The translations under genes were made by a program, and so were the position numbers. Shown here piece by piece: positions 20,216-26,241 of a DNA stretch of 35,217 bases. Source of the stretch: Deltaproteobacteria bacterium (GTDB taxonomy: Bacteria; Myxococcota_A; Polyangia; GCA-2747355); NCBI GenBank assembly GCA_019314525.1, contig JAFCZD010000005.1:1-35217 (forward strand), in the 5' to 3' direction. Below the pieces are notes generated by a model. It was not told where the DNA came from. It saw only the letters and a program-made list of their open reading frames with translations, and made no database searches. The stretch's first letter is position 1, and each line of letters starts with the position of its first letter.

Positions 20216-22390
20216 GTGTCGACACCATTGGAAACGCAGCTCGAAGAGCTGTTGGCAAAGGTCAAAGCCTATAATCCGAGCGCGGACCTCTCCCTCGTGA
20301 CGGATGCCTTCACCACAGCGGGGGATGCCCACGCGGGACAGAAACGCAAATCGGGCGAGCCGTATTTCATCCATCCAGTCTCCGTCGCCCACTTGATCGC
20401 AGACCTCAAGCTCGACGTGCCCAGCATCTGCGCTGGTTTGCTGCACGATTGCGTCGAGGACACAGAGATGACCCTGGAGAACCTCGAGGAGACTTTCACG
20501 CGCGAGGTCGCCTTCTTGGTGGATGGGGTGACCAAGCTCGGCAAGTTGCCCTGGAATACGCGTGAAGAGCGGCAAGCGGAGAATTTCCGCAAGATGCTCT
20601 TGGCCATGGCCAAAGATATCCGAGTGGTCCTGATCAAGTTGGCCGATCGCACGAATAATATGCGCACGCTGGAGCATATGTCCGAGGATGGGCAGGACCG
20701 AATCGCCCGCGAGACCATGGACATCTATGCGCCCCTCGCCAATCGCCTCGGCATTTACTGGTTGCGAGCGGAGCTCGAGGACCTCTCTTTTCGCTACCTC
20801 TACCCCAACGAATACCGGCAACTCTTAGAGGATCTTGAAGCGACAGAAGAGCAGCGGCGCGCCTATGTCGTGGAGGTTGAGCAGACCCTACGCCGGCTGA
20901 TGGCGCGAAACGATATTCGGTGTGAGGTCCATGGTCGAACCAAGAACCTCTGGGGCATCTACAACAAGATGCGCAACCAGAAGCGCAGCCTCGACCAGAT
21001 CTATGATGTCGTCGCCTTTCGTGCCCTCACCAGCACTATCCGTGATTGCTACGCCGCCCTCGGTGTCGTCCATGAGAAGTTCACTCCTATCCCGGGACGC
21101 TTCAAGGACTACGTGGCGATGCCCAAACCCAACCAATATCAGTCACTACACACCTCCTTGATGGGGCCGAGGGGAGAGCGGATGGAGGTGCAGATCCGCA
21201 CCTACGAGATGCACCGTGTGTGTGAAGAAGGTATCGCTGCGCATTGGGTCTACAAAGACGGCAGAGGAGGGCTCTCAGCCAGTGACCAGCAGAAGTTTGC
21301 CTGGCTCCGACAGTTGGTGGAATTTCAGCGTGATCTGAAGGATCCCGCGGAGTTCATCGACGCAGTCAAGATCGACCTCTTCGCGGATGAAGTCTATGTC
21401 TTCACGCCCAATGGCGACGTCAAGGCCTTTCCCGCTGGTGCCACCCCTGTGGACTTCGCCTTCGTCATCCACACGGAGGTCGGCAACCACTGTGCTGGCG
21501 CCAAGGTCAATGGCCAAATGGTACCCTTGCGACACAAGCTGCGTAATGGCGACACCGTTGAAATCATCACCAACTCCAACCAGAGGCCGAACAAAGATTG
21601 GCTCAAGACCTGCGCCACCGCGCGAGCACGCTCCAAGATTCGCCACTACATCCGGGGTGAGCAGCGCGACCGCGGACGGGCTCTGGGCAAAGAACTGGTA
21701 GAGCGCGCGCTGCGCCAGGCGGGTCACTCCTACCAGAAGATGCAGAAGCAAGGCGCGCTCAAACGCGCGACCCTTGATTTGCATGCTGGCAACAAGGAAG
21801 AAGACCTTCTGATGCAGGTCGGCTTTGGCAAGGTCACGCCCACGCAGGTGGTGCGTTCGATCTTCCCCGAAGAAACGCCAGCCGCCGATGCCACAGACAA
21901 GGGTGGGCGACTCAAGCGACTCACCGGGATCTTCAGCAAACCACGCCGGCGGGCACCAAGCGGCATCCGCGTGCAAGGTGAAGAGGACGTGCTTGTGCGC
22001 TTCGCGCACTGTTGCAACCCGCTGCCCGGCGACACCATCCTCGGTTTTATCACCCGCGGCCGAGGCGTAACGATCCACAAACTCGATTGCCCCAAAGCGC
22101 TCAACCTCGACCCCGAGCGGCGCATTGACGTCTCCTGGGATAGTGAATCCGAGGTCTCCCATCCGGTAACGATCAACGTGCACTCCACGGACAAGCCTGG
22201 CTTGCTCGCTGAGGTGAGCAAGACGTTCTCTGAGCTGAAGGTGAACCTGGCGCAGGCAAATTGCAGAGTCACGCCCAATGGGAGGGCGATCAACACCTTC
22301 CACTTCCAGGTAGCACACCTCGATCACCTCAAGCAGGTGATGCGCGCACTACAAAAAATCAGAGGTGTCTATTCGGTGGAGCGGGTCTAA
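20216..22390 (+). CDS. Bifunctional (p)ppGpp synthetase/hydrolase (Rel/SpoT)
   Basis: This 724-residue protein has the full long-RSH layout. The HD hydrolase domain (HPVSVAHLI and LLHDCVEDTEM, with the H-D pair near residue 77) is intact. The synthetase domain has GRFKDYVAMPKPNQYQSLHTS and EVQIRTYEMHRVCEEGIAAHW. A TGS domain (DEVYVFTPNGDVKAFPAGATPVDFAF), a Cys-containing ZFD/RIS segment (RFAHCCNPLPGDTILGFITRGRGVTIH) and a C-terminal ACT domain follow. Hydrolysis and synthesis residues both look intact, so it should make and degrade (p)ppGpp in the stringent response. The start is GTG 20216 with only a weak ribosome site. Confidence 0.96.
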   Translation: MSTPLETQLEELLAKVKAYNPSADLSLVTDAFTTAGDAHAGQKRKSGEPYFIHPVSVAHLIADLKLDVPSICAGLLHDCVEDTEMTLENLEETFTREVAFLVDGVTKLGKLPWNTREERQAENFRKMLLAMAKDIRVVLIKLADRTNNMRTLEHMSEDGQDRIARETMDIYAPLANRLGIYWLRAELEDLSFRYLYPNEYRQLLEDLEATEEQRRAYVVEVEQTLRRLMARNDIRCEVHGRTKNLWGIYNKMRNQKRSLDQIYDVVAFRALTSTIRDCYAALGVVHEKFTPIPGRFKDYVAMPKPNQYQSLHTSLMGPRGERMEVQIRTYEMHRVCEEGIAAHWVYKDGRGGLSASDQQKFAWLRQLVEFQRDLKDPAEFIDAVKIDLFADEVYVFTPNGDVKAFPAGATPVDFAFVIHTEVGNHCAGAKVNGQMVPLRHKLRNGDTVEIITNSNQRPNKDWLKTCATARARSKIRHYIRGEQRDRGRALGKELVERALRQAGHSYQKMQKQGALKRATLDLHAGNKEEDLLMQVGFGKVTPTQVVRSIFPEETPAADATDKGGRLKRLTGIFSKPRRRAPSGIRVQGEEDVLVRFAHCCNPLPGDTILGFITRGRGVTIHKLDCPKALNLDPERRIDVSWDSESEVSHPVTINVHSTDKPGLLAEVSKTFSELKVNLAQANCRVTPNGRAINTFHFQVAHLDHLKQVMRALQKIRGVYSVERV

Positions 22391-22520: not shown

Positions 22521-22679
22521 CTACTGCTTAGGGGCGGGTTCTCCAGGTGCACCAAAACCGGCAAAGAGCTCCTCATAGGAGAGAGTGCTCTTGCGTGCGC
22601 CTTCGTTCTTGCGTTTGCGCCCCGCCCGATAGAGACGAGCACGCCGCTTGGCCGTAGTTTTTCTCGAATTTGAAGCCAT
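22521..22679 (-). CDS. Small basic protein of unknown function (52 aa)
   Basis: I choose ATG 22679 (MASNSRKTTAKRRARLYRAG) rather than the track start at 22745, because GAGG lies 9 nt upstream and the encoded protein becomes compact. About half of the first 30 residues are Arg/Lys, as in ribosome- or nucleic-acid-binding peptides. The tail reads TLSYEELFAGFGAPGEPAPKQ. The SYEEL motif recurs at the N-terminus of the acidic repeat protein 3.5 kb away. It is divergent from the pseudokinase gene. The family is not recognised. Confidence 0.65.
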   Translation of the reverse strand: MASNSRKTTAKRRARLYRAGRKRKNEGARKSTLSYEELFAGFGAPGEPAPKQ

Positions 22680-22865: not shown

Positions 22866-24710
22866 ATGTCCGACGCGCAAGTAGTTTGCCCCAAGTGCCA
22901 ACAGACAACACCAAGCAGTGCAGCCTTCTGTGGGCATTGCGGGCACGATTTAAGGCAAGATGAGCCAGTTGTGGCCGAGAAGAAGACGATGTTCGGCTAT
23001 CGAGCTGACATGATCTTTGCCAGTGCTGCCAAACCCGGTGCAGGTGCTGCACCAGCAGAGGCCGCAGAGCCACCAGCGCCTGCTGCAGCGACGCCTCCCG
23101 CAGCCACCGCTGCAGAGCCCCCAGTTCCGGCTGCTGTGGCGCCTCCTGCGGCTGCTGTGGCGCCTCCTCCTGCGGCGGCGGCTCCCGCGCAGAGCACGCT
23201 CTTTGCTGACCGCTACGCGCCTGAGGGTGCCCCCCATACCCTGCCCGTGGGCACGCTCCAGGTGGCACGAGATACTCAATCAAATGAGCTGGTGGATCTG
23301 CTCATCGTCGCCCCTGACCACTTTGCTTCGCCTCTCGACACCGAGCGAGCAAGACGTGAGTTGCGACAATTGCAGAAGGTGGAGAGCCCTCATCTCGTTC
23401 GCGTCGTCGACCATGGTAAGAGCGGAAACCAGATCTACATGGCCATGGAGCACATTGATGGCGCAACCCTCGAGCAACGGGTCGCTCAGGGACCTTTGAC
23501 ATTGCCGGAGGCCCAGAAGGTGATCCGGGCGCTTGGCATCGGTCTTTCAGACGCGCAGAAGGCCGGGGTCATCCATCGTGACGTGGCTCCACATAATGTC
23601 GTCTTTGCTGAAGATGACACGATTAAGATTCGCGGTTTCGGCGTCGCACCCCTGATCAAACGCAACGTCATGGGTACCCCAGAATACCTGAGCCCCGAGC
23701 AAGCCGCCGGGCGTCCCGTGGACCAGCGTTCTAGCATCTACAGCATTGGTGCGTTGTTCTTCTACATGATCACTGGGGAACCACCCTTTTCTGGCAGCGC
23801 CGAGGAAATTCTCGAACAGCACCAACGAGCCGAACCACCGTCACCAGCGGACCGACGTCCCGACCTTCACCTGCCACCACGTGCGGCCCAGCTCATCACC
23901 AAAGCGCTCGCCAAGAGTTCAAGTCGACGTCATCTGACATTGCGACAATTCCTCCGTGACCTTGATTCCCTCAGCGAGAGCGCCCCCATGGTGCAGCAAC
24001 CAGTCGCTCCCGCGATCCATACCTTCGAGACTCCCCTGCATGGGGTCACCTCCCTCAGCGGGGGTGACCGACCCCCGTCATCCGAGTTTCCAGCCATCAA
24101 GGCTGCACAGCAAATGGCGGCCGCCAGCGTCTTGGCTGAGACGCTGCCCGATAAGGCAACACCAGATGCGCCACAACAAGCCGAAGATGGTCCCAGTGCT
24201 GTTGGTGCAGGTGGAGGGGGCGCGGTATCGGGTGAGATGAGTGGTGGTGCAAGGGTCAGCATGCGTCAGAAGGACGCCCAGCCTTCGAAAGTTGCCGACG
24301 AACCGGTGGTGACACCTCCCAGTGGCCAAGAGGCTCAAGGGGCAAAAGGTGGCAAAGGTGGCTTTCGGGAGACCATGTGGTTCTTCAAGGGCGAGATTGA
24401 GTCTGAGCTGGCTCAACAGGGGGAGACTTCTGAGGCGCCGGCCCCAGAGGACGCCCACGAACTGGCAGCCAAGTATCGTGACGATGGTAGCCTCGACGAG
24501 GATGAGGCCAAGCGCCTCTCGCTACGCACTGGCAAGACACAGATGATGCAGGCGGCAAAAATCCCATCAGGTCAGTTACCTGGTGAGAAGATGAGCGCAG
24601 ACGACTTTATCGGCGAGTTCAACAAGGGCCGAAAACTTGGCTTGTGGATCTCCCTCGGGGTGCTTGGGCTCGCGGGTGTGGGAGCAGCACTCTTCTTCCT
24701 CTTGCGTTGA
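22866..24710 (+). CDS. Membrane-anchored zinc-ribbon pseudokinase
   Basis: The 614-residue protein starts with a zinc ribbon (CPKC...CGHCG, Cys8/11/22/25). An Ala/Pro-rich linker of about 60 residues leads to a Ser/Thr-kinase fold (about 115-370). A variable region and one C-terminal helix (LWISLGVLGLAGVGAALFFLL, about 590-612) follow. Several kinase landmarks are present: the alpha-C Glu (ARRELRQL), HRD (HRDVAPHN) and GTPEYLSPEQAAG. However, the VAIK lysine position reads DLLIV, the catalytic-loop Lys is Ala, and DFG is GFG (IKIRGFG). It should therefore bind partners or scaffold rather than phosphorylate. GAGG lies about 7 nt before the ATG. Whether it retains nucleotide binding cannot be read. 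Confidence 0.85.
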   Translation: MSDAQVVCPKCQQTTPSSAAFCGHCGHDLRQDEPVVAEKKTMFGYRADMIFASAAKPGAGAAPAEAAEPPAPAAATPPAATAAEPPVPAAVAPPAAAVAPPPAAAAPAQSTLFADRYAPEGAPHTLPVGTLQVARDTQSNELVDLLIVAPDHFASPLDTERARRELRQLQKVESPHLVRVVDHGKSGNQIYMAMEHIDGATLEQRVAQGPLTLPEAQKVIRALGIGLSDAQKAGVIHRDVAPHNVVFAEDDTIKIRGFGVAPLIKRNVMGTPEYLSPEQAAGRPVDQRSSIYSIGALFFYMITGEPPFSGSAEEILEQHQRAEPPSPADRRPDLHLPPRAAQLITKALAKSSSRRHLTLRQFLRDLDSLSESAPMVQQPVAPAIHTFETPLHGVTSLSGGDRPPSSEFPAIKAAQQMAAASVLAETLPDKATPDAPQQAEDGPSAVGAGGGGAVSGEMSGGARVSMRQKDAQPSKVADEPVVTPPSGQEAQGAKGGKGGFRETMWFFKGEIESELAQQGETSEAPAPEDAHELAAKYRDDGSLDEDEAKRLSLRTGKTQMMQAAKIPSGQLPGEKMSADDFIGEFNKGRKLGLWISLGVLGLAGVGAALFFLLR

Positions 24711-25797: not shown

Positions 25798-26241
25798 TCA
25801 AGCGGGGGCTTTCTCGCCTGTGCCGCTTGCAGCTTCGTCGCCTTGAGGCTCACCGATCTCCTCGCCAATAGCGGCGTCACCATGAGCGGTGGTGCTGTCC
25901 TCAGCAGAGACAGCCTCTGGCTCCGCGAGGGCTGCCGCCTCGGCTATAGCCTCTTCGACCACATTGGGAATTGCCATCTCTTCGACGTTCTCTTCACCCG
26001 CTAACACCTCCTCCATGGGCTCCACGGGCATCTCCTCTATGGATTCCACGGGCATCTCCTCTATGGATTCCACGGGCATCTCCTCTATGGATTCCACGGG
26101 CATCTCCTCCATAGATTCCACAGGCATATCCTCCATGGGTTCCATGGGCATCCCCTCCCTGGCGTCCATGGGGCTCTCCTCCACGGCCTCAGGTGCTTGC
26201 TTTTGTACCAGAGCTTCACATAGCTCTTCATAGGAGATCAT
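25798..26241 (-). CDS. Acidic octapeptide-repeat protein
   Basis: The 147-residue product begins MISYEELCEALVQKQAPEAVEE and is then built of repeats of the octapeptide MPVESIEE (with MPMEPMED and MPVEPMEE variants), followed by an Ala/Glu-rich acidic tail. It has no signal peptide or membrane segment. AAGGGA precedes the ATG by about 9 nt, and the reading frame is kept through all 24-bp repeat units, which supports a real gene. The extreme composition suggests a disordered, highly negative protein. The SYEEL motif also appears in the 52-residue basic protein. The function is unknown. Confidence 0.6.
   Translation of the reverse strand: MISYEELCEALVQKQAPEAVEESPMDAREGMPMEPMEDMPVESMEEMPVESIEEMPVESIEEMPVESIEEMPVEPMEEVLAGEENVEEMAIPNVVEEAIAEAAALAEPEAVSAEDSTTAHGDAAIGEEIGEPQGDEAASGTGEKAPA
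26026..26169. repeat. 24-bp tandem repeat array encoding MPVESIEE
   Basis: Three identical units of 24 bp (26026-26049, 26050-26073, 26074-26097) are followed by three or more diverging units. Because 24 is a multiple of three, gain or loss of units keeps the frame of the acidic protein. Confidence 0.95.

Follow-up and report, generated by a model that had tools for sequence, protein, structure and literature searches.

A predicted membrane-anchored kinase fold downstream of rsh

The window analyzed here is a 35,217-nucleotide stretch of contig JAFCZD010000005.1, from a Deltaproteobacteria bacterium of the class Polyangia. It contains an open reading frame, with its own ATG and stop codon, whose product combines an N-terminal zinc ribbon, an Ala/Pro-rich linker and a kinase-like domain; a further linker, which is disordered, then leads to a conserved C-terminal module and a hydrophobic helix (Table 1). 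Three of the zinc-ribbon cysteines are invariant in an 18-member alignment. The Pfam zinc-ribbon models match residues 8-30 below their cut-offs when the whole protein is the query, and in the genome search the stretch scores 27.3 against a cut-off of 25 bits. At least six more open frames of the same genome have a zinc ribbon-like stretch ahead of their kinase domain, several of these stretches with weak scores; fusion of a zinc ribbon to a kinase therefore seems to be common in this genome.

The Pfam Pkinase model (PF00069) matches residues 157-361 with an E value of 5.8e-31 (108 bits, cut-off 31.7). Because the match begins at profile position 40, the glycine-rich N-terminus is left unmatched. 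A glycine-rich loop is unrecognizable in the window's order. An AlphaFold model of the domain, built on a 36-sequence alignment, was compared with solved structures by Foldseek, which ranked PknB of M. tuberculosis first (TM 0.81/0.83, 33% identity). A sequence-only reading of this DNA had proposed that the protein is tethered to the membrane. This is supported by the C-terminal helix, which has a Kyte-Doolittle value of 2.3 over 19 residues from position 595 and is modeled by AlphaFold as a helix spanning residues 587-613. Almost no tail follows it in the window protein; in several relatives the tail is longer and rich in Pro, Ala and Lys. Elsewhere in the window, an acidic open reading frame with tandem MPVESIEE repeats lies at 25798-26241 on the reverse strand.

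Table 1. Coordinates of the pseudokinase gene, its neighbors and the features of its product
Feature	Position	Strand	Remarks
rsh, (p)ppGpp synthetase/hydrolase	20216..22390	+	nearest same-strand gene upstream
52-aa basic protein gene	22521..22679	-	unannotated; between rsh and the pseudokinase gene
Zinc-ribbon pseudokinase, predicted membrane-anchored	22866..24710	+	614 aa; one clade with 35 relatives, 100/100
Zinc ribbon CPKC-x10-CGHC, residues 8-25	22887..22940	+	Cys 8, 11, 22, 25
KKTMFGY, residues 39-45	22980..23000	+	first T-M-[FMLIW] linear motif
Ala/Pro-rich linker	23001..23198	+	63% A+P; mostly low AlphaFold confidence
Kinase-like domain	23199..23984	+	AlphaFold pLDDT 96, pTM 0.92; top PDB match PknB 5u94
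Leu146 at the VAIK (beta-3) Lys position	23301..23303	+	family: K in 31/36, L/C in the window's order
Catalytic loop HRDVAPHN, residues 237-244	23574..23597	+	Ala241 replaces Lys; HRD and Asn kept
GFG (257-259) replacing DFG	23634..23642	+	first position N 24, D 6, G 4, E 2 (n = 36)
Ser290 replacing the invariant subdomain-IX Asp	23733..23735	+	N 29, S 5, A 2 (n = 36); D in 40/40 other kinases of the genome
FRETMWF, residues 500-506	24363..24383	+	opens the conserved C-terminal module
C-terminal transmembrane helix (predicted)	24636..24704	+	hydrophobicity and AlphaFold

Catalytic residues in the protein, its genome and its relatives

Alignment bore out the three substitutions that had been read from the letters, with L146 at the VAIK Lys, A241 at the HRDxK Lys and G257-F258-G259 at DFG. 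The elements said to be kept are indeed present: HRD at 237-239, the APE-region SPE at 276-278 and the alpha-C Glu, E165; N244 is retained as well. Two further losses had been overlooked. The subdomain-IX Asp, the equivalent of D220 of PKA, is a serine, and the activation segment is shortened to 22 residues; 40 other kinases from this genome have segments of 23-36 residues, most often 29. Active Ser/Thr kinases have the VAIK Lys, the HRD Asp and the DFG Asp, and a pseudokinase lacks at least one of them; only the HRD Asp is present here. With two of the three gone and a clear match to the kinase fold, the designation as a pseudokinase is supported. Basic residues near the cleft are H243, K264 and R265. 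A replacement catalytic lysine conserved across the family was looked for, and none was found.

The claim that three elements are lost together is correct for the window protein, but the losses are distributed very differently elsewhere. Absence of the HRDxK Lys is common: among the matches listed for this genome, 44 of 96 HRDxxPxN motifs lack it, the residue at HRD+2 being Lys in 52, Ser in 32, Thr in 6, Ala in 4 (the window protein included) and Asn in 2. The listing covered most of the 109 matches, and four entries that did not resemble kinase loops were left out. The VAIK Lys, DFG Asp and subdomain-IX Asp are intact in the 20 Lys-less kinases examined, and absence of the HRDxK Lys alone is no ground for calling myxobacterial kinases dead. 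Twenty of the 21 Lys-less HRDxxPxN kinases placed in the tree group into one branch. By comparison, the VAIK Lys, alpha-C Glu and HRD occur together in 39 of 40 other kinase domains of the genome (39 are soundly aligned; in L218 the catalytic loop is misaligned), and the DFG and subdomain-IX Asp in all 40.

Thirty of the 144 genomes of the class, the window's included, carry one relative each at an E value of 1e-50, and the 30 matches contain no internal stop codon. More divergent relatives occur in families f4, f9, f13 and f8; a scan of named genomes, dominated by ordinary kinases, yielded a single true member, L031, from a Myxococcales MAG and identical in sequence to L028. In a maximum-likelihood tree, 36 family members split from the genome's other kinases (100/100), and the clade was recovered again (100/100) after the f8 proteins were added.

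How well the substitutions are conserved in orthologues depends on the position. Lack of Lys at HRD+2, lack of the subdomain-IX Asp and a short activation loop mark the whole family, with neither residue found in any of the 36. The VAIK Lys, in contrast, is kept in 31 and the DFG Asp in 6; the HRD Asp and Asn are each retained in 34 and the alpha-C Glu in all 36. Loss of the VAIK Lys is limited to the window's order, the f9 protein L152 and the f8 proteins (outside the 36). What replaces the DFG Asp differs by branch: Asn in a large branch, Gly in the window's order and Glu in two f20 members. Orthologues with intact motifs had been named as evidence against a pseudokinase, and four f16/f20 relatives (L008, L010, L011 and L013) do have an intact VAIK Lys, alpha-C Glu, HRD, Asn and DFG, although they too lack the HRDxK Lys and subdomain-IX Asp. 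In the orthologues from the large f8 genomes, which share the locus and the clade, HRD has become HRN, and both the VAIK Lys and DFG are missing. Because the pattern is common, in graded form, to the 36-member set, chance can be excluded as the source of the residue losses.

Neighboring genes and linear motifs

In 15 of the 16 large loci with enough sequence, from several families, the rsh gene lies upstream of the pseudokinase gene and in the same orientation; the recurrent wider block is yicC, gmk, rsh, pseudokinase, tmk. We considered an operon of the pseudokinase with rsh alone, but this idea is weakened by the opposite-strand gene that separates them in the window. That gene encodes a 52-residue basic protein with the pattern MASN..GRKRKN..ELFAGxGEPG, for which there was no match in Pfam or NCBIfam. 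It is divergent from the pseudokinase gene in the window, and co-oriented and upstream in most relatives. It occurs in 92 of the 144 class genomes, including all 30 that carry the pseudokinase; in 28 of these 30 the two genes share a contig and lie at most about 1.3 kb apart, and in the remaining 2 they are on separate contigs. The pair was also seen without an adjoining rsh (in G080 and G004). In further families of the class, including f7, f12, f14, f25 and f26, no member of the pseudokinase family was found in the roughly 1.5 kb that follow rsh; an f22 locus has a kinase of 95 bits there.

Outside the fold, the best-conserved parts are, in order along the protein, FRETxWF, an S-L-x-x-G-x-T stretch and the helix. 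The FRETxWF module, the T-M motifs and the transmembrane helix are retained despite low overall identity. Beyond their kinase domains, 24 family proteins contain 55 instances of T-[MV]-[MFLIW], compared with 6.6 +/- 2.6 in shuffled sequences. This enrichment is a description and not a test, since the motif was picked after viewing the sequences and the family proteins share ancestry. The f8 proteins, which have no zinc ribbon, contain three to nine T-M motifs each, mostly RGWTM[FIL], and every one that was read to its end has a C-terminal hydrophobic helix. RGWTM[FIL]-type repeats are found in the linkers of the fully dead f8 pseudokinases L255-L259 and L268; L259 also has DTMYFKKGE, comparable to FRETMWFKKGE.

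In a pattern search, FRETxWF had a single site in the window's genome. It is found, too, in kinase-less zinc-ribbon/transmembrane proteins of family f44, from another class. These are probably related to the pseudokinase and share its architecture without the kinase domain, a grading that reflects weak scores (best E 2e-5) and the same order of elements. At the f44 loci L199, L200, L201, L202 and L204, an RNase Y-like HD-domain gene adjoins the kinase-less gene or lies a few kb from it.

Known pseudokinases and the role of the family

PknB/PknA-type Ser/Thr kinases share the fold, include the nearest solved structures (5u94) and, in PknB, likewise have a membrane helix after the domain; the window protein differs from them in lacking the VAIK Lys, HRDxK Lys, DFG Asp, subdomain-IX Asp, T-loop and PASTA domains, and in its added zinc ribbon. 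Seven bacterial pseudokinase families have been reviewed, none of them described with the present combination of features (PMC12599244), and in the open-access literature searched we found no description of a zinc-ribbon bacterial pseudokinase. The DLHK proteins are closest by motif: they have lost the VAIK Lys and kept the HRD Asp and Asn, and a listed P. aeruginosa member has GFG. However, they have no transmembrane region and frequently carry a fused helicase or nuclease domain, unlike the window protein with its predicted C-terminal transmembrane helix and zinc ribbon (PMC12599244).

By membrane link, the nearest families are ActPs3/MviN, EssB and GLW, all of which lack HRD. ActPs3/MviN and EssB/YukC are membrane-linked pseudokinases with a shortened activation loop, and EssB/YukC has a known non-catalytic scaffold role; they belong to other lineages, and no zinc ribbon or FRETxWF module is reported for them (PMC12599244). 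ActPs3/MviN proteins have lost all three motifs and their activation loop is deleted, whereas the window protein keeps HRD and Asn and has a shortened loop; the f8 relatives have lost all three motifs yet fall in the present clade, and both are set apart from ActPs3 by description. GLW pseudokinases resemble the window protein in a Leu at the VAIK Lys position and a C-terminal transmembrane region, but in them GLW replaces HRD (PMC12599244).

We think it likely that this membrane-anchored kinase fold is a non-catalytic, partner-binding protein of a conserved myxobacterial pseudokinase family. The C-terminal helix would hold the fold, on the cytoplasmic side, at the inner membrane; the fold would transfer no phosphate and bind partners instead. 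Other proteins, possibly the active Ser/Thr kinases abundant in the window's genome, probably dock at or phosphorylate the T-M-[FMLIW] motifs of the linker and the FRETxWF module. Binding rather than catalysis is suggested because the catalytic losses vary by branch while the anchor and linear motifs persist. A function shared with the f8 orthologues, given their HRN and their lack of the VAIK Lys and DFG, cannot need catalysis, and replacement of the DFG Asp by G, N or E according to branch is what would be expected once selection for metal binding has ceased. The regulatory scaffold proposed earlier, a role assigned by analogy, is a plausible reading, and the best one for the window pseudokinase; the zinc ribbon would be inessential to it, since the f8 and f9 relatives have none.

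The four relatives with the VAIK Lys, HRD, Asn and DFG count against a non-catalytic role. They also have an Arg four residues past the HRD Asp, as does the tyrosine kinase loop HRDLAARN, and might suggest an atypical active enzyme in which nucleotide is still used by way of the retained HRD Asp and Asn, with other basic residues (H243 or the KR of the activation loop) standing in. There are precedents: ULK4 binds ATP, and SelO catalyzes another reaction. Moreover, the near-universal HRD Asp and Asn of the family fit such an enzyme, and the DLHK pseudokinases, which retain HRD, have been modeled with ATP (PMC12599244). We nevertheless consider this unlikely, in view of HRN in the f8 orthologues, three different replacements of the DFG Asp and the unrecognizable glycine-rich loop in the window's order. 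The proteins of that order may show weak nucleotide binding or an unusual activity, since their HRD Asp and Asn are kept and, in the window protein, H243, K264 and R265 lie near the cleft.

Less likely again is a nucleotide-sensing switch, in which relatives with the VAIK Lys and alpha-C Glu would bind ATP without hydrolysis and so alter partner binding, a property since lost in the window's order. The frequency of both residues in the family is consistent with a switch, as is the nearby rsh, which handles a nucleotide signal; but the window's order and f8 are both without the VAIK Lys, so a switch is unneeded for the family to persist. That these genes encode decaying, functionless products is very improbable: catalytic residues are certainly being lost, but the reading frames of the 30 matches are free of in-frame stops, the fold residues and C-terminal motifs are highly conserved, and so is the locus.

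Returning to the partner-binding protein, we tentatively suggest, as a possibility we would not favor strongly, that the rsh/52-residue protein/pseudokinase locus records graded decay of the active site, from nearly intact in f16/f20, by way of partial loss in the window's order and f5, to fully dead in f8, with the linker motifs and membrane anchor retained. The kinase fold would then be an exchangeable part of an older FRETxWF/T-M membrane adaptor acting together with the basic protein, perhaps in the stringent response or growth control. The existence of a pseudokinase is in itself ordinary; the conserved syntenic family, its graded decay and the recurrent small-protein neighbor are more interesting. 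To our knowledge, a function has been established for few bacterial pseudokinases. Here a single syntenic gene exists in many natural versions, at differing stages of catalytic decay, which, together with the recurrent neighbor and clear linear motifs, make the role of a dead kinase fold in a bacterium testable.
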